IMG/VR virus record: IMGVR_UViG_3300010296_000022
Location: 1-38,100 of that record
Source of the DNA: a virus
Reading direction: 5' to 3' (one strand)
Length of the DNA stretch: 38,100 bases
Program-made: the position numbers and the translations under genes
Notes under the pieces: model-generated
Databases searched by the model: none
What the model was told of the DNA's origin: nothing
The model's input: only the letters and a program-made list of their open reading frames with translations
Part shown: in pieces, positions 18,381 through 38,079 of the stretch
How the letters are laid out: each line of letters opens with the position of its first letter
Position numbering within the stretch: position 1 is the first letter of the stretch

Positions 18381-18393
18381 GGTGTTTGTCACC
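18381..18393 (-). promoter_or_regulatory. Dispersed element, GTGACAAACACC variant, copy 2
   Basis: The minus strand reads GGTGACAAACACC between two late genes, ten bases ahead of an ATG and in the direction of transcription. With the flanking bases it forms TAGGTG-ACAAA-CACCTA, a six-base stem with a five-base loop. A four-residue frame GTG-ACA-AAC-ACC-TAA is contained in it. Confidence 0.65.
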
Positions 18394-23996: not shown

Positions 23997-24009
23997 GGTG
24001 TTTGTCACC
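23997..24009 (-). promoter_or_regulatory. Dispersed element, GTGACAAACACC variant, copy 3
   Basis: The minus strand reads GGTGACAAACACC between the terminase stop and the portal ATG, directly touching that ATG and pointing along transcription. The GTG inside it is in frame with the portal gene, so the element could itself hold the start codon. Confidence 0.65.
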
Positions 24010-26608: not shown

Positions 26609-26620
26609 GGTGTTAGTCAT
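26609..26620 (-). promoter_or_regulatory. Dispersed 12-base element, copy 4
   Basis: Exact ATGACTAACACC on the minus strand in the gap before the HNH and terminase genes. A TATAAG lies 13 bases upstream on that strand and could be a -10 box, which would put the element at the transcript start. The frame it opens is only MTNTA then a stop. Confidence 0.65.
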
Positions 26621-28318: not shown

Positions 28319-28843
28319 TTACATTTGGCTCCAGGTGTTTGTCACCTGGACCAAAAAATCTTGCTCCGACATCGCGTTAAGTATGGAGTAATCAGCCTTC
28401 ACAGATTTCACACTGGTCTCGGATACATGCTCATCTTTCAGCCCTGTATCTCTGATGATCTTCCAGACCTGACCACCCAGGTTCCTGACCCACTCACCCT
28501 CAAACGGAAACCTGACGTCATCAATGATCAGCATGTTGTATCCATGGTTCCTGTAGTGGTTCCATGCCTCCAGCAATCGTTTGATCCAGACGTCCTTTCC
28601 ATGCAGCTCTTTCATGGACTGACCTACTGCCTGATATACGGGCCTCAGGACTGCCTTATCCTCTTCTTTGTAGGTCCCAAAGATCTTTGCCACCTCTGCC
28701 TTAATTGGATCTCCAAAACCCAACCTGATAGGCACTAGGCCCTGCTGTTCAGCTAAAGCAATGAGATGCCTCGCTGCTGTTGTCTTCCCACTACGTTTGG
28801 TCCCTGCCAAACCTATGATGAATTCACTCTTCTTCCCCGTCAT
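28319..28843 (-). CDS. Deoxynucleoside monophosphate kinase-like P-loop protein
   Basis: From ATG 28843, overlapping the previous stop by one base (TGATG), the protein has 174 residues. It starts with a P-loop IIGLAGTKRSGKTTAARHL at about 9-27. It carries YNMLIIDDVRFPFEGEW near 110-126, the acidic segment following the P-loop in phage dNMP kinases, and the late DEHVSETS segment. Such enzymes raise nucleotide pools for phage DNA synthesis. A GTG three codons upstream could also start it. The last codons (VTNTWSQM) are encoded by a copy of the dispersed element. Confidence 0.75.
   Translation of the reverse strand: MTGKKSEFIIGLAGTKRSGKTTAARHLIALAEQQGLVPIRLGFGDPIKAEVAKIFGTYKEEDKAVLRPVYQAVGQSMKELHGKDVWIKRLLEAWNHYRNHGYNMLIIDDVRFPFEGEWVRNLGGQVWKIIRDTGLKDEHVSETSVKSVKADYSILNAMSEQDFLVQVTNTWSQM
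28331..28349 (-). promoter_or_regulatory. Dispersed element, GTGACAAACACC variant, copy 6, perfect hairpin
   Basis: CCAGGTG-TTTGT-CACCTGG is a perfect seven-base-arm inverted repeat containing GGTGACAAACACC on the minus strand. It lies in the last codons of the kinase gene, about 20 bases ahead of the next ATG, oriented with transcription. Confidence 0.65.
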
Positions 28844-29061: not shown

Positions 29062-30380
29062 TTGATGGAATTGACTAGTATGGGGCCTTCCTCGACTCCC
29101 TTGAATCTACTATTCCATCGCGTGTATTCCAAGCTCACCTTGGCCTCTTGAACTCCATTTCGATTCTTTCGGATCCAGAGGTTCACAATCCCATCATCTG
29201 GCTCCTCATCGGAGGTGTTCTTCATAAGAAAAGCTACGCTGTCAGCGTCCTGTTCTGCTGTCCCAGAGTCCCTTAGATCTGACATCCTGGGTATCTGCTT
29301 CTCCCTCTTCTCAATCTCCCTGTTCATCTGAGCCAACAAGATCACCGGAACCCCGCATTCGAGTGCCATGACCTTGATGGTTCTGGTGATTGCTCCAATC
29401 TCATTAACCCGGTTCTCATATCGTCCACCACTCCTTATGAGAGTCAGGTAATCGATGACCAACATGTCCACTCCCTTGTCCTGCACAAACCTCCTGGCTT
29501 GAGACCTAAGCTGGTCCACGGTGATGGCTGGGGTGTCCTCAATGTGGATCGGTAGCTCGAAGAAATCCTTGGCCGCCTTAGCAAGCTTGGTTTTGTCGCC
29601 CATGCCTGTTTTCAAGTAGTGCCTCACATCCTCTCCCGACATGATGGCAACAGCTCTCTCAGCAATGGAGTTGTAAAGCATCTCAAGGCTCCAGATAGCC
29701 ACCTTCTTGCCCTGCTTAGCTGCTTGGATAGCAAGGAACATGGAGAAAGCAGATTTACCACCACCTGGACGTCCTGAGATGATGTAAACAGCCCCAGGGA
29801 GAAACCCTCCAAGCTTGTCATCCAAACCATATATCCCACTCTTGATGGATAGGTCTGGGACACCGCCATCCTTAGCACTCTCTAGAACGTCCATAAAGGC
29901 CCTCTGAGCCTCTTTCTGATCCTTCTCGGTAGTCATACCCTTAGTGGTCTCCCAAAGAGCGTCCTGAAGGCCCTGAAGAAGCTTTTCGGGATCTTCCTCC
30001 TGCTGTGCTGCTGTCAGTGCATTGTAGTGCTTCATGAACACCTGACGCCTCACATACACGGCATAGGCTTGTTCAGCATAGTAGGACAGGTTTGAAGCGG
30101 TTGAGGATTCACGTATCAGGTCGTCAATGTAAAGGGCTTCAGACATGACTTGGCGACTCACTGTGAACTGGTCAATGGTTCCTCCAGCTTTGGAAACAGA
30201 CTCACAAGCAATCCACACGCGACGGTTCCTGGGATCAGCAAACCAATCCTCTGAAATGCCGAGTTCCTCGGCTTCCGAAAATGCACCAAGAAGGACACAG
30301 CCTAAAAGGCCCTTCTCAGCGAGGATGTCCTCGGGAACATCGTAATCGATAGTGATGGTGTTTTTCTTAGCGGAAATCAT
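29058..30380 (-). CDS. dnaB: Replicative DNA helicase, DnaB type
   Basis: A 440-residue DnaB-family helicase. The N-terminal part (EDILAEKGLLGCVLLG) is the helical collar domain. The RecA-like motor has Walker A GRPGGGKS at 203-210, the KVAIWSLEM strand at 226-234, Walker B MLVIDYLTLI around 306-315, and the QMNREIEKRE and SDLRDSGTAEQDAD blocks (351-380) that hold the hexamer's sensor and arginine-finger regions. It unwinds DNA ahead of the fork. It starts with an ATGA overlap with the winged-helix gene, so initiator and helicase are coupled. No helicase loader is recognised in the window. Confidence 0.93.
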   Translation of the reverse strand: MISAKKNTITIDYDVPEDILAEKGLLGCVLLGAFSEAEELGISEDWFADPRNRRVWIACESVSKAGGTIDQFTVSRQVMSEALYIDDLIRESSTASNLSYYAEQAYAVYVRRQVFMKHYNALTAAQQEEDPEKLLQGLQDALWETTKGMTTEKDQKEAQRAFMDVLESAKDGGVPDLSIKSGIYGLDDKLGGFLPGAVYIISGRPGGGKSAFSMFLAIQAAKQGKKVAIWSLEMLYNSIAERAVAIMSGEDVRHYLKTGMGDKTKLAKAAKDFFELPIHIEDTPAITVDQLRSQARRFVQDKGVDMLVIDYLTLIRSGGRYENRVNEIGAITRTIKVMALECGVPVILLAQMNREIEKREKQIPRMSDLRDSGTAEQDADSVAFLMKNTSDEEPDDGIVNLWIRKNRNGVQEAKVSLEYTRWNSRFKGVEEGPILVNSIK

Positions 30381-30868
30381 ACTTTGTAGAACGGTTTCCC
30401 TGCCTTGATGTCAGCAGGGACGGAGCGAGAGACAGAGTTCCTTTTGGATCTTCCAGCAAGGATGATCTCAGTCATGATCTCATCCCTCTCCTCCTTATTA
30501 CTATTACTATATATATTATCTCTATTAGTTAGTGTCCGTCCTCGCGGACATGTTATATCGTTAACGTGTCCGTCATCGCGGACACGTCGTTGGGCCTTGG
30601 TGTTAGTCATAGAGGCCGACTCTATCGGCTTTCCCTTGCCCCTGGCTAGATAGCAAGTGGATCTGCCTGCCTTTTTCTGGATCAGCCATCCGTGTTCAAC
30701 CAGGGTTTTCAGAGCTTTCCACAACCGGGTCTTACACACTCCGATCCTCTTGGCCATGGTTCTCTTGTCGTCGAAGCAGCAGCCCCTCATGCACACGTAG
30801 AGGTAGGCCTCCCTCTCGATAAGAGAGAAGCCCACCTCATAGATGTGTTCAGGGACCCTTGGGATCAT
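30377..30868 (-). CDS. Winged-helix replication initiator candidate (lambda O-like)
   Basis: A 163-residue protein. Residues about 30-75 form a winged helix (DDKRTMAKRIGVCKTRLWKA, then LVEHGWLIQKKAGRSTCYL). The middle, about 83-125, is low in recognisable structure and is encoded by the inverted repeats and the AT-rich tract described separately. The C-terminal part is basic and ends ADIKAGKPFYKV. A DNA-binding protein just ahead of DnaB, with repeat sites inside its own gene, is the plan of lambda O/P-type initiation. It could instead be only a transcription regulator. It starts with an ATGA overlap with the HNH gene. Confidence 0.65.
   Translation of the reverse strand: MIPRVPEHIYEVGFSLIEREAYLYVCMRGCCFDDKRTMAKRIGVCKTRLWKALKTLVEHGWLIQKKAGRSTCYLARGKGKPIESASMTNTKAQRRVRDDGHVNDITCPRGRTLTNRDNIYSNSNKEERDEIMTEIILAGRSKRNSVSRSVPADIKAGKPFYKV
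30495..30587. other. Candidate replication origin: two iteron-like inverted repeats plus AT-rich tract
   Basis: Two 18-base sites, TGTCCGTCCTCGCGGACA (30533-30550) and TGTCCGTCATCGCGGACA (30567-30584), differ by one base and are 34 bases apart. The second extends to nine-base arms ACGTGTCCG/CGGACACGT. Next to them is an AT-rich tract (about 30495-30532) that could melt. The two copies fall in different reading frames of the surrounding gene, so they are kept as DNA, not as protein repeats. This matches the lambda pattern of iterons and AT-rich DNA inside the initiator gene. An operator function is the main alternative. Confidence 0.6.
30599..30610 (-). promoter_or_regulatory. Dispersed 12-base element, copy 7, inside the initiator gene
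   Basis: Exact ATGACTAACACC on the minus strand, read in frame as MTNT in the initiator protein. It is the only exact copy well inside a gene. It sits 15 bases from the iteron-like repeats, so it may control transcription through the candidate origin. Confidence 0.6.
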
Positions 30869-34410: not shown

Positions 34411-34422
34411 GGTGTTAGTCAT
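34411..34422 (-). promoter_or_regulatory. Dispersed 12-base element, copy 8, at the head of the early operon
   Basis: Exact ATGACTAACACC on the minus strand, one base ahead of the ATG of the 56-residue gene. Its own frame reads MTNTYDTH and stops 14 bases inside that gene. It lies in the divergent control region between leftward early genes and the rightward RHH gene. Confidence 0.7.
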
Positions 34423-34468
34423 ACGTGCGTTGTGAATAAGTTTTTGTAAAAATTGCTTGCTTACATGT

Positions 34469-34491
34469 TATAGGGTGCCAAACACCCTATA
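34469..34491. promoter_or_regulatory. Perfect palindromic operator at the RHH gene start
   Basis: TATAGGGTG-CCAAA-CACCCTATA has nine-base perfect arms and a five-base centre, and its last base is the A of the RHH gene's ATG. The core GGTGCCAAACACC differs by one base from the GGTGACAAACACC variant of the dispersed element. It is therefore probably the strongest, symmetrical site of the same protein. A site covering the start codon suggests self-repression. Confidence 0.65.
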
Positions 34492-34682
34492 TGCCTAGTA
34501 TACGTGCCTTGGGTAAAAAGTGTTTGGCGGCTTGGTTAGATGACCGCCTTCTTAATCGCTGGAAAAAGTATTGTGAGAGCCTGGGAATGACCCAGACTGA
34601 TCGACTTGCTCTTCTATTGTCTCAAGATTTGAAACAAGCAGATGAGACAGCATATCGGAAACGTCAACGCCAAGCAAAGTAG
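34491..34682 (+). CDS. Ribbon-helix-helix-like DNA-binding protein (candidate regulator)
   Basis: A 63-residue protein reading MPSIRALGKKCLAAWLDDRL, then LNRWKKYCESLGMTQTDRLA and LLLSQDLKQADETAYRKR. A short strand (KCLAAWL), a helix (DDRLLNRWKKYCESLG) and a second helix beginning with TQTDRLALLLSQDL fit the CopG/Arc fold. The palindromic operator overlaps its ATG, and no Shine-Dalgarno is seen, so it may be read from a message starting near the ATG. It could control the dispersed element. A 57-residue frame lies on the opposite strand. Confidence 0.55.
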   Translation: MPSIRALGKKCLAAWLDDRLLNRWKKYCESLGMTQTDRLALLLSQDLKQADETAYRKRQRQAK

Positions 34683-34725
34683 CGGCTTGGGTAGCCAAAT
34701 TGGTTTGTTGTTCTGTCAATCTCAT
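34552..34725 (-). CDS. Leftward 57-residue frame antisense to the RHH gene
   Basis: ATG at 34725, stop at 34552-34554. The product begins MRLTEQQTNLATQAATLLGV and ends in a serine-rich tail. It starts exactly where the short frame of element copy 9 (MTNTA) ends, sharing ATGA. That is the coupling used throughout this genome. It overlaps most of the RHH gene on the other strand, so both cannot be under strong protein constraint. Either one is unreal, or they form an antisense switch pair. Confidence 0.3.
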   Translation of the reverse strand: MRLTEQQTNLATQAATLLGVDVSDMLSHLLVSNLETIEEQVDQSGSFPGSHNTFSSD

Positions 34726-34727
34726 GC

Positions 34728-34739
34728 GGTGTTAGTCAT
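34728..34739 (-). promoter_or_regulatory. Dispersed 12-base element, copy 9
   Basis: Exact ATGACTAACACC on the minus strand, facing leftward from the integrase upstream region. The frame it opens, MTNTA, stops in an ATGA that starts the 57-residue antisense frame. Confidence 0.65.
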
Positions 34740-34840: not shown

Positions 34841-35809
34841 ATGCACAATGGCATTGTGGGGGTCAGGGGTTCGACTCCCCTCGGCTCCACCAAATTTACT
34901 TCAGGGGAACCTTCCCTTTTTCTCTCCAGCCAAGACCAAAAGGTTGTTGAGGAAATGTGGGAAAACGGTGTCTCCCTCATCCAAGTGTGGTCCGATTGGC
35001 GTCGGTTGTATCTCGCTAGCGATCAGTCAGTCAAGCAATCTGTTCACCTTTTTTTATCCCACCTTCAACAGGCCCACTACAGCCACCGCTATTGCCAAGA
35101 ATTTGGTTATGTCCTGAGACGTCTCAGCCTGTTCATAGATGTTGAGGTCCCCATCTGTCAGGTCTCCACAAAAAGTTGGTGGAGATCTCTGGATGCAATG
35201 AAGGCTGGAGATGCAGCTAGAAGGAAGGTGTCGGTGTTTTTGAACTGGTGTTTGAAACAAGGCTTTATCAAGGAACCCGTCGTAATCCACGGCAAGCCAT
35301 CGATGCCTGATGGCGAGATCCAAGTGCTACCCAATCGAGTTGTTGCCTCGCTTATCCAAAGCTGTCCTTTAGATCTTCTGGGTTACCTTTGGTTGTGTCT
35401 CTGCATGGGGCTAAGAGTGGCCGAAGCAAAACGGACTGAACACCTAGCCCACCGGGATGGTTGCCTGATAGTTGGGGCCTCCGCTGCCAAGACTAGGACC
35501 AGACGAGTCCTAGACATTCTCCCTGGTCATGGGAAATTCGCTGAACTTATCCAGCCTCAGATCAACCTGAAGAAACGTATGCTCGCCCTCAGGGCCGACT
35601 CTGGGATCTCGGACTGGCCCAGGAACTGTATGCGCCACACAGCAGCTTCTCACTGGCTAAACAAACTTCGATCCGCTGAGTCGGCTGCACTCCACCTCGG
35701 AAACTCTCCGGTCATGCTTCACCGTCACTACAAGGCCCTAGTCACTAAGAAGGAATCAGAAGAATTCTTCGCCATCTGGGACGAGGCATTGTCAAGGAAA
35801 TTTGGTTAG
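34841..35809 (+). CDS. int: Tyrosine recombinase / phage integrase with attP in its 5' end
   Basis: A 322-residue tyrosine recombinase. The catalytic set is R192 (CMGLRVAEAKR), K217 (AAKTRTRRVLD), N262-x-x-R265 (NCMRHTAAS), N288 (HLGNSP) and nucleophile Y297 (HRHYKALV). The usual histidines at the first and fourth of these positions are asparagine, a pattern I recall from PVC-group integrases. ATG 34841 follows AGGAGG by five bases, so this start is well supported. Codons 3-17 lie in the 3' half of a tRNA-Ala sequence, the likely attachment site. A crossover there would remove the start and ribosome site from the gene body. It inserts and probably excises the phage. Confidence 0.9.
   Translation: MHNGIVGVRGSTPLGSTKFTSGEPSLFLSSQDQKVVEEMWENGVSLIQVWSDWRRLYLASDQSVKQSVHLFLSHLQQAHYSHRYCQEFGYVLRRLSLFIDVEVPICQVSTKSWWRSLDAMKAGDAARRKVSVFLNWCLKQGFIKEPVVIHGKPSMPDGEIQVLPNRVVASLIQSCPLDLLGYLWLCLCMGLRVAEAKRTEHLAHRDGCLIVGASAAKTRTRRVLDILPGHGKFAELIQPQINLKKRMLALRADSGISDWPRNCMRHTAASHWLNKLRSAESAALHLGNSPVMLHRHYKALVTKKESEEFFAIWDEALSRKFG
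34848..34892 (+). other. attP: Phage attachment site: 3' half of tRNA-Ala(GGC)
   Basis: The 45 bases fit canonical tRNA positions 32 to 76 without gaps. They give anticodon loop ATGGCAT (anticodon GGC), stem 39-43 TGTGG, a five-base variable loop GGGTC, T arm AGGGG-TTCGACT-CCCCT, acceptor strand CGGCTCC, discriminator A and CCA. U at position 70 agrees with the G3-U70 pair of tRNA-Ala. Four of five bases upstream (34844-34847) still pair with the 3' anticodon stem. There is no 5' half, so this is not a tRNA gene but a piece that would restore a host tRNA-Ala on integration. Confidence 0.85.
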
Positions 35810-35830: not shown

Positions 35831-35858
35831 TCCAACTAAAAAAACTTGATTTAATGTG

Positions 35859-35887
35859 TTGACGTTTAATTAAACGTGATACATATT
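35859..35887 (+). promoter_or_regulatory. Promoter with palindromic operator for the rightward operon
   Basis: TTGACG (35859-35864), a 17-base spacer and CATATT (35882-35887) make a fair sigma-70 type promoter in AT-rich DNA. A perfect 16-base palindrome, ACGTTTAATTAAACGT (35862-35877), starts inside the -35 box and fills most of the spacer, an ideal place for a repressor. It differs in sequence from the dispersed element. Start of transcription would be near 35893-35895, about 20 bases before element copy 10. Confidence 0.6.
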
Positions 35888-35914
35888 AATCATCTCAGCG
35901 GCAATGAGGCCGTT

Positions 35915-35926
35915 ATGACTAACACC
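35915..35926 (+). promoter_or_regulatory. Dispersed 12-base element, copy 10
   Basis: Exact ATGACTAACACC on the plus strand, just downstream of the promoter and pointing along transcription. Its ATG follows GAGG by five bases, the only exact copy with a clear ribosome site. Confidence 0.7.
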
Positions 35927-36276: not shown

Positions 36277-36288
36277 ATGACTAACACC
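36277..36288 (+). promoter_or_regulatory. Dispersed 12-base element, copy 11, forms the methyltransferase start
   Basis: Exact ATGACTAACACC on the plus strand, directly after a TGA stop. Its ATG is the first ATG of the methyltransferase frame, giving MTNTSYGM. An internal ATG eight codons in is an alternative start. Confidence 0.65.
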
Positions 36289-37287
36289 TCTTATGGCATG
36301 GCACACACACTTACAACTTTCCACCTCTTCGCAGGAGCAGGAGGAGGAATTCTCGCTGACATCTTACTTGGACACAATCCAGTCGGAGCGTGTGAAATTG
36401 AACCCTACCCACGTAACATCCTGCTCCAACGGCAACGCGACGGATACCTCCCAAGCTTCCCTGTGTGGGATGATGTGGCTACCCTCGACGGAAATCCTTG
36501 GCGAGGAACAGTTGACATTCTTTGTGGAGGATTTCCCTGCCAAGACATCTCAGCAGCAAACCCAAAGGGCAAAGGAATTGAGGGAAGTCGGTCAGGACTT
36601 TGGAAGGAGTATTCAAGGCTTATTGATGAGATCCAACCTGCAATTGTCTTTGCCGAAAACAGCCCGCTGCTTCGGACCAGAGGACTTGGAACCGTCCTCA
36701 AGGACCTTGCCAAGTTGGGGTATAATGCACGATGGGGAATTATGGGAGCTAGGCACGTCTCTGCACCCCACAGAAGAGACCGCATGTGGGTATTGGCCTA
36801 CCGTCACGACAGATCCTTCAATGAGAAGCACGAAATACAAACAGGGGGGGACACCTCTTTCGTATGCAGTTCAGCAGAAGCAGTGGATCACTCCGACAGC
36901 TTACGATGCGAAGGGGACTCAGAGGTGGAGGGAAGAGTTTCAAAATGGATTGGTGGCGCAAGTCGCCAACCCCGCACAGTGGCCAACCCCGCGAGCAAAC
37001 GACCACAAAGGGGGAGAGGCCCCAAGAAGCCTGACGAGGAAGGACGGGAAATCCAGAATGGACAAGATTCCCAATGTGGTCGCTTATGGTGGGCTAACGA
37101 CCCAGCAGATCTCAGAGCTGGATCAGACGTCGGCTCACAGGACATTACGGATCAACCCGTCGTGGACAGAATGGCTGATGGGGTGGCCTATCGGGTGGAC
37201 AGACTCAAGGCCATTGGAAACGGCCAAGTTCCGCAATGTGCAGCATTGGCATTCAGAGTTTTGTCGCACGGACTTTTGCCAATATGA
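36277..37287 (+). CDS. dcm: DNA cytosine-5 methyltransferase (Dcm-like)
   Basis: A 336-residue C5 cytosine methyltransferase. Motif I is LFAGAGGG (17-24), motif IV GGFPCQ (84-89) with catalytic C88, motif VI AEN (126-128), motif VIII HRRDRMW (165-171), and motif X KAIGNGQVP (311-319) after RVDRL. All key residues are present, so activity is likely. The target recognition region (about 175-300) is unusual and arginine- and glycine-rich. The enzyme would mark phage DNA against host restriction or regulate expression. A second long frame covers nearly the whole gene. Its stop TGA lies in the next copy of the dispersed element. Confidence 0.92.
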   Translation: MTNTSYGMAHTLTTFHLFAGAGGGILADILLGHNPVGACEIEPYPRNILLQRQRDGYLPSFPVWDDVATLDGNPWRGTVDILCGGFPCQDISAANPKGKGIEGSRSGLWKEYSRLIDEIQPAIVFAENSPLLRTRGLGTVLKDLAKLGYNARWGIMGARHVSAPHRRDRMWVLAYRHDRSFNEKHEIQTGGDTSFVCSSAEAVDHSDSLRCEGDSEVEGRVSKWIGGASRQPRTVANPASKRPQRGRGPKKPDEEGREIQNGQDSQCGRLWWANDPADLRAGSDVGSQDITDQPVVDRMADGVAYRVDRLKAIGNGQVPQCAALAFRVLSHGLLPI

Positions 37288-37291
37288 CTAA
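36293..37291 (+). CDS. 332-codon overlapping frame inside the methyltransferase gene
   Basis: Shifted by one base from the methyltransferase, this frame stays open for 332 codons. The product has its own pattern: LTFFVEDFPAKTS (74-86), DFGRS (102-106), LPSWGIMHDGELWEL (139-153), and three related repeats, YWPTVTTD, WITPTAYDAKGT and WPTPRANDHKGG. It ends in NPSWTEWLMGWPIGWTD (288-304). I recall phage database entries with this same order, LxLFLE-AKTS through repeated WPTP to GWTDL. It ends in TAA four bases past the methyltransferase stop. It may be a real overprinted gene, or a by-product of conserved methyltransferase codons. Confidence 0.5.
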   Translation: MAWHTHLQLSTSSQEQEEEFSLTSYLDTIQSERVKLNPTHVTSCSNGNATDTSQASLCGMMWLPSTEILGEEQLTFFVEDFPAKTSQQQTQRAKELREVGQDFGRSIQGLLMRSNLQLSLPKTARCFGPEDLEPSSRTLPSWGIMHDGELWELGTSLHPTEETACGYWPTVTTDPSMRSTKYKQGGTPLSYAVQQKQWITPTAYDAKGTQRWREEFQNGLVAQVANPAQWPTPRANDHKGGEAPRSLTRKDGKSRMDKIPNVVAYGGLTTQQISELDQTSAHRTLRINPSWTEWLMGWPIGWTDSRPLETAKFRNVQHWHSEFCRTDFCQYD

Positions 37292-37295
37292 CACC
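37284..37295 (+). promoter_or_regulatory. Dispersed 12-base element, copy 12
   Basis: Exact ATGACTAACACC on the plus strand. It contains the stops of both overlapping frames (TGA 37285-37287, TAA 37289-37291) and an ATG. The frame from that ATG, MTNTFLL (37284-37307), stops in a TAATG that starts the hydrolase gene. It is the clearest stop-start chain in the window. Confidence 0.7.
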
Positions 37296-37717: not shown

Positions 37718-37890
37718 ACGAAAACGAAGCATCAGAGATTTACGCATTAGCTTTGGTTGGGGTTCAGGCTGTAGAGGAGGACGTTCAGCCACTGTTCCAA
37801 AAGATCCTCTCCATTTCAGAACCACACATGAACAAGGACCAAGCCAAAGAGATTTATGAGTCAATCATCTCGCGACCAGAAGACAATTAG
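37714..37890 (+). CDS. Small acidic protein (58 residues), function unknown
   Basis: It starts with an ATGA overlap with the hydrolase stop and ends at TAG 37888-37890. The product reads MNENEASEIYALALVGVQAV, then EEDVQPLFQKILSISEPHMN, and is helical and acidic. It overlaps the next gene by 35 bases. Coupling and composition suggest a real gene. No family recognised. Confidence 0.55.
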   Translation: MNENEASEIYALALVGVQAVEEDVQPLFQKILSISEPHMNKDQAKEIYESIISRPEDN

Positions 37891-38068
37891 ACGAGGGCCT
37901 CCCAAAGGATCTCAGAACAGAATCAAGGTGGCAGGGAAACCTGCCTCCTCTTTTTTGCACATGCGGTGCCGACCCGATCAAAAGGAAGCTTGGACCGAAG
38001 CTGCTAAGGCCGAAGGCAAGTCACTGTCTGACTGGGTGCAAGATACCTTGGATGCCTCTTGCCAGTGA
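37856..38068 (+). CDS. Small DNA-binding-like protein, ribbon-helix-helix type
   Basis: A 70-residue protein with a basic, flexible start (RRGPPKGSQNRIKVAGKP). It is followed by SSFLHMRCRPDQKEAWTEAA and KAEGKSLSDWVQDTLDASC, the strand-helix-helix pattern of small RHH proteins. It could be a regulator of the operon or the antitoxin-like half of a pair. AAAGAG precedes the ATG. Its stop overlaps by one base a copy of the dispersed element in reverse orientation. Confidence 0.55.
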   Translation: MSQSSRDQKTIRRGPPKGSQNRIKVAGKPASSFLHMRCRPDQKEAWTEAAKAEGKSLSDWVQDTLDASCQ

Positions 38069-38079
38069 TGTTAGTCACC
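38068..38079 (-). promoter_or_regulatory. Dispersed element, GTGACTAACAT variant, copy 13
   Basis: The minus strand reads GGTGACTAACAT at the end of the rightward operon, opposing it. Like copy 1 it lies at the 3' end of plus-strand genes and points the other way. It shares 14 bases with copy 5. Confidence 0.5.

Follow-up and report, generated by a model that had tools for sequence, protein, structure and literature searches.

A 63-residue ribbon-helix-helix-like protein as candidate multi-site repressor in a family of integrase-bearing phages

Introduction

How temperate phages that lack a recognisable CI-like gene keep lysogeny is often unclear. The question is raised by a locus in a 38.1-kb virus record (the window, by which we mean the whole stretch of DNA analysed), where a gene for a small ribbon-helix-helix (RHH)-like protein, here called RHH-A, lies among copies of a short element that is dispersed through the genome. 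What reads the element, and could it serve to keep a prophage silent?

The window comes from a tailed phage and is organised as two large transcription units. The leftward unit runs from about 34409 down to 866 and contains the replication, terminase, portal and structural genes. The rightward unit runs from 34491 via the integrase to the right end of the window. In the relative L010 the counterpart of this right end continues into a site matching window position 690, and the rightward unit therefore probably extends into 69-710.

The phages of this family are uncultured and carry an integrase, which in the window is of the tyrosine type (34841-35809, plus strand). The 5′ end of its reading frame holds a sequence matching the 3′ end of a tmRNA, at about 34848-34892 (Rfam E = 1.8e-9 for the small region searched, under the gathering score). 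The tmRNA-type sequence is kept in relatives, but in different reading frames, which suggests that it is probably the attP core. If so, integration would part the integrase from the RHH genes. An integrase together with a tmRNA-type att sequence is consistent with temperance, and we infer a temperate lifestyle. The sole match of the family in the genome collection is a marine Rhodospirillaceae MAG, with no sign of an actinobacterial host; a host search with the att sequence gave no exact match among 289 genomes of the MAG's class.

An earlier note on this DNA had seen no classical CI-like repressor, and had named the RHH gene as the best repressor candidate. The first point agrees with our scan of 28 mostly non-structural ORFs, in which no CI-like repressor (HTH_3, S24) was found, and no protein comparable to the L5-type repressor of about 183 residues (HTH plus stoperator domain) was recognised. 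The second point is the subject of what follows.

Results

A dispersed element at gene boundaries

The occurrence of RTGACWAACACC is non-random, with 11 exact copies in the window (eight on the minus and three on the plus strand) compared with a chance expectation from composition of 0.0146 copies, and no match for a reversed control pattern. Eight of the copies have the form ATGACTAACACC, and GGTGACAAACACC is found at 18381, 23997 and 28334. With genes modelled simply as longest ORFs, 8 of the 11 copies fall at the edge of a gene or in intergenic DNA, in a genome that is 93.5% gene interior.

Within the leftward unit, minus-strand copies occur at 18381-18392 (between genes, with a structural-region gene starting 10 nt further on), 23997-24008 (overlapping the portal gene start), 26609-26620 (intergenic), 28334-28345 (in the deoxynucleotide kinase gene, at its 3′ end) and 30599-30610 (within the 3′ part of the gene at 30377-30868, and kept in relatives). 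The minus-strand copy at 34411-34422, conserved in relatives, belongs to the divergent control region and directly precedes the leftward genes, while that at 34728-34739 is immediately upstream of a second RHH-like gene, RHH-B, discussed below; both are ATGACTAACACC. The last minus-strand copy (690-701) is beyond the end of the leftward operon, within the 3′ end of a convergent gene. The plus-strand copies are at 35915-35926, downstream of a rightward TTGACG promoter-like sequence, at 36277-36288, overlapping the methylase gene start, and at 37284-37295, overlapping the methylase stop and 11 nt before the hydrolase start. A near-copy, GTGACTAACATC (38067-38078, minus strand), is kept in G002 and appears as GTGACTAACACT in G005 and G006. 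It is at the end of a further small RHH-like gene (37856-38068; Arc-like PHROG, E = 7.5e-4; TacA1, E = 2.3e-4), which is kept in some relatives only.

Nearly all copies have the direction of local transcription, the exceptions being 690 and the near-copy at 38067; for the copy at 34728 this depends on RHH-B being a true gene. The distance from a copy to the next start ranges from -12 to more than 200 nt.

The element changes in concert between lineages

Relatives were collected with RHH-A (six by search, 12 in all by alignment), with the terminase (50) and with the integrase (12, all but one of them close). In those with terminase identity of 73% or more, the element takes the form of a 13-bp pseudo-palindrome, GGTG-AC[TAC][AGC]A-CACC. 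It is absent from phages with terminase identity of 69% or less, some of whose contigs are fragments. An element-free relative, L038, has short repeats of ACAAACCGCCTAC and variants at 133-196, which were rejected as a dispersed element because they form a single local cluster. A host repeat was also rejected: the MAG that holds a phage contig has seven elements in the 19 kb of that contig and one in the remaining 1.28 Mb or so, making the element a property of the phage.

The GGTG and CACC half-sites are invariant across lineages, and the centre differs. It is ACTAA or ACAAA in the window, G005, G006 and G017 (ACTAA in G017), ACTGA in G011 and G013, and ACCAA or ACCCA in G016 and G020, and within each lineage almost all sites have undergone the change together. 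Eight genomes have a site close to the 3′ end of the kinase gene, at the same codon position, where it is read in frame as V-T-x-T and has the centre typical of the lineage. Concerted change at about ten places per genome implies a shared trans-acting reader.

Information content indicates that the left GG of the 13-mer has been lost from most copies in the window's own lineage. The asymmetric copies of the window had been proposed as weaker half-sites of a symmetrical master site, which does not fit the full pseudo-palindromes of the relatives.

The control region ahead of RHH-A

RHH-A is preceded, 4 nt before its ATG, by an operator-like core GGTGCCAAACACC (34474-34486, plus strand), which is GGTGTCAAACACC in relatives. 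As the earlier note had said, this core is one base from the GGTGACAAACACC sites. The window's lineage and G017 share the arrangement GGTG[C/T]CAAACACC-N4-ATG, while in G011, G013, G016 and G020 the sites are further upstream in the same intergenic region. The control region of every lineage has two sites ahead of RHH-A, some of them imperfect. Between the two in the window is its sole TTATNCACA, a DnaA box (34431-34439, minus strand); G005, G006, G013 and G020 also have a DnaA box in or beside the control region.

The core is embedded in a longer inverted repeat, TATAGGGTG-CCAAA-CACCCTATA (34469-34491), which had been described as a perfect 23-base palindrome covering the start codon of RHH-A and flanked by exact copies of itself. 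It consists of 9-bp arms around a non-symmetric 5-nt centre; it does overlap the start codon, but covers only the A of the ATG, and what flanks it at 34411 and 34728 is the exact but asymmetric element ATGACTAACACC. Inverted repeats of this kind (9-bp arms, loops of 0-10 nt) occur at close to the chance frequency (five in the window, 0-4 in shuffled sequences), and the outer arms are not conserved in relatives, where only the 13-bp core is kept. The extended palindrome was therefore rejected as a special master site, its symmetry outside the core being a local accident.

RHH-A is the best candidate reader

The 63-codon ORF noted at this position was confirmed (34491-34682, plus strand). It is present in all 12 of the element-bearing loci that span the region, flanked in each by a RusA-like gene on one side and the integrase on the other, and it is missing from G026, an element-free relative of 44.7 kb. 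Relatives that keep the elements and lack the RHH gene had been named as the finding that would speak against this candidate; none was found among these 12 loci, and RHH-A keeps its place as best repressor candidate. About nine other genes have the same phyletic pattern. In the N-terminal third of RHH-A, which overlaps no other gene, there are 140 synonymous and 5 non-synonymous pairwise codon differences, and it is concluded that RHH-A is under strong purifying selection. Its residues R5, K9, C11 and W15 are invariant across lineages, as are the half-sites.

The AlphaFold2 model of the RHH-A monomer (pLDDT 78) begins with an extended N-terminus, followed by three helices, a short one at 12-15 and longer ones at 18-31 and 35-62; no strand is assigned by DSSP. 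This fits a strand-helix-turn-helix arrangement, and nearly all the top fold matches are RHH proteins (CopG, ParG, Arc, MazE, PutA, TacA), with CopG first in Foldseek, in line with the RHH-like gene originally suggested. The matches are individually weak: the best E-value is 0.36, there is no significant Foldseek E-value for the model of either RHH-A or RHH-B, and a second look using VIA-align gave Z of 6.3 at most, in a listing from which the absence of a family does not exclude it. Sequence profiles (Pfam, PHROG, PDB) gave no significant match to RHH-A, the nearest being a weak RepB-RCR_reg (E = 0.15), and a search of annotated phages gave none. The fold is thus predicted to be RHH-like on weak individual scores, and the candidate DNA-facing strand residues (C, A/G/S, W) are atypical of the RHH group.

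Taken with the concerted change of the sites, this leads us to the reading that we hold, by a little, to be probable: RHH-A is a multi-site repressor that reads the dispersed element and silences the prophage in a stoperator-like manner. RHH-A would be the immunity or master repressor of the phage, and would bind the 13-bp pseudo-palindromic operator GGTGWNNNWCACC, probably in dimeric form and by means of its N-terminal arm and strand; GGTGACTAACACC and ATGACTAACACC are candidate target DNAs. The two control-region operators, which precede RHH-A and the leftward operon, would provide autoregulation and keep the leftward promoter shut. About nine further copies inside both operons would hold back leaking transcription, as Cluster A stoperators do, so that the prophage would be blocked at many points. 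Drift of the centre across a whole lineage would then create different immunity specificities.

Several observations stand against this, among them the atypical strand residues, the weak fold scores, the negative profile searches and the other genes with the same phyletic pattern. The distance between RHH-A proteins does not track that between elements: the co-variation that the earlier note had suggested looking for was not significant (Mantel r = 0.05, n = 5 lineages, 42 of 120 permutations). A correspondence between strand residue 13 (A, S, G) and the centres (TA, TG, CA/CC) was also rejected, since it has three classes only. Several sites in relatives are reversed relative to transcription.

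RHH-B and other possible readers

The reader might instead be another protein of the phage, with RHH-A acting as an anti-repressor, a Cro-like protein or an antitoxin. We regard this as unlikely. One contender is RHH-B, a 57-residue RHH-like ORF that the earlier note had missed (34552-34725, minus strand). It is convergent with RHH-A, overlaps its 3′ end by 131 bp, and has its ATG 2 nt downstream of the element copy at 34728. Every lineage has such a small minus-strand ORF between RHH-A and the integrase, overlapping the 3′ end of RHH-A, and the model of RHH-B has two helices and matches RHH antitoxins. Outside the overlap, the minus frame ranks first of the six frames for synonymous fraction in the window's lineage (0.46) and shares first place with one plus frame in G011/G013 (4 to 2), while in G020/G016 the synonymous fraction gives it no support (1 to 7). 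However, the half-sites are constant, whereas the N-terminal strand of RHH-B varies by lineage (MRLT, VRLIIS, IVFNV) and in the window is truncated, which makes RHH-B a poorer candidate reader; and there is no element at RHH-B in G011, G013, G016 and G020.

The HTH_36 replication-type protein encoded at 30377-30868 and the integrase both share the phyletic pattern of RHH-A, and there is a precedent for the integrase in MrpR of SP-beta, a repressor with a recombinase fold. Against them, homologs of the 30377 protein are only 28-31% identical between lineages, and an integrase is expected at its own att and arm sites.

Do the sites block elongation?

If RHH-A or another repressor is the reader, the sites could still be ordinary operators on internal promoters, with no block to elongation. 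Promoter-like sequences do adjoin the 35915 and control-region sites, and are found above the 95th percentile of background near 10 of 59 sites, compared with 3 expected, so some sites may be plain operators. Most, however, have no above-background promoter-like sequence on the relevant strand, and many are 0-20 nt before start codons or within gene ends, which is too close for a promoter plus leader. As an account of the whole set, this has a small probability. The rightward promoter-like sequence ahead of the 35915 site (35858-35890, TTGACG...CATATTA) has a 16-bp perfect palindrome, ACGTTTAATTAAACGT, between its hexamers. G002, G005 and G006 retain this palindrome, which G017, G016 and G020 lack, and another regulator may use it as its operator.

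The element might also act in RNA, as a hairpin or a sequence for translation control, antitermination or processing. It is mostly co-directional with transcription and close to start and stop codons, GGUG-N5-CACC is able to pair, and the Cluster K start-associated sequences provide a precedent. But 8 of the 11 window copies (ATGACTAACACC) are unable to form the 4-bp stem, and the outer pairing is lost even from one phage to a near-identical one (CCAGGTG/CACCTGG at 28334 is CGAGGTG/CACCTGG in G002), for which reasons a hairpin was rejected as the main reading. The wide range of distances to the next start, the antisense or reversed sites and the lack of an Rfam match for the element also count against action in RNA, which we consider very unlikely. 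Two related candidates were rejected, namely a start-associated sequence, for which the spacing is too variable, and a conserved MTNT mini-ORF or leader peptide, for which the frame and encoded residues vary by site and lineage.

It is most improbable that the sites are centromere-like or genome-organising and bound by an RHH protein of the ParG or omega type, or are packaging or replication sites: RHH proteins include centromere binders, ParG and the pCXC100 ParB are among the fold matches and there is a DnaA box in the control region, but no ParA-like partner was recognised (the lone ParA-profile match, E = 0.003, is in the DnaB helicase), the phage has an integrase, and the sites track gene boundaries and are not clustered.

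Discussion

Repression by RHH-A at dispersed sites is therefore the reading that we favour. The family offers a compact candidate system, with one 63-residue protein, a 13-bp site that occurs in several natural specificities, and about ten sites per genome. If the reading is true, genome-wide silencing by dispersed sites has arisen with a DNA-binding fold other than that of Cluster A, and the natural variants of site and protein would permit residue-by-base mapping of immunity specificity. A wider proposal, which is possible though doubtful, is that this is stoperator-like immunity outside the actinobacteriophages, in which a small RHH repressor acts together with a convergent RHH gene as the possible opposing arm of a lysis-lysogeny decision, and the centres define immunity groups.

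In predicted fold and size, RHH-A is like Arc of P22 and plasmid CopG. It differs from them in having no significant sequence similarity, and in its genome-wide set of sites. The operators for which Arc and CopG are known lie at their own promoters and are not spread through a genome.

The element is short and spread through the genome near gene boundaries, like the repeats of Cluster K and Cluster O phages. In the sections of the reports that deal with them, the start-associated sequences of Cluster K precede starts by 3-7 bp and have a Shine-Dalgarno core, the Cluster O repeats are 17-bp palindromes with 7-bp perfect dyads, and neither is assigned a reader (PMC3203893, PMC4351075). Unlike the Cluster K sequences as described there, the element has no AGGAG core and no fixed distance to starts.

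Another parallel is SP-beta, whose 15-bp intergenic SPBRE repeats, proposed in silico as a repressor site, proved later to be bound by the master repressor MrpR, a protein with a tyrosine-recombinase fold (PMC10516654). Here too, a repeated intergenic element is proposed in silico as a repressor site. The SPBRE repeats are in promoter regions (PMC10516654), whereas many of the present sites have no promoter-like sequence, and the candidate reader is an RHH protein.

The main comparison is with the L5-type phages of Cluster A. These are temperate, and have dispersed 13-bp stoperators in short intergenic spaces and mostly in one orientation; their repressors, monomers of 183 residues, have a stoperator domain separate from the HTH and bind asymmetric sites (PMC9283540, PMC6550527). 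Sites against transcription are poorly tolerated by L5 stoperators (PMC9283540); in the window most sites have one direction relative to transcription, with the exceptions given above, and in relatives, where the motif is pseudo-palindromic, several are reversed. As in Cluster A, many copies of one short motif are placed at gene boundaries, one conserved site lies by the repressor gene, and the motif drifts between related phages. The differences are that the candidate is a 63-residue RHH-like protein and that the site is pseudo-palindromic in most relatives. Dispersed repressor sites are of a known kind; what would be new here is their occurrence in a family with no sign of an actinobacterial host, together with a small RHH candidate and its convergent RHH-like partner.
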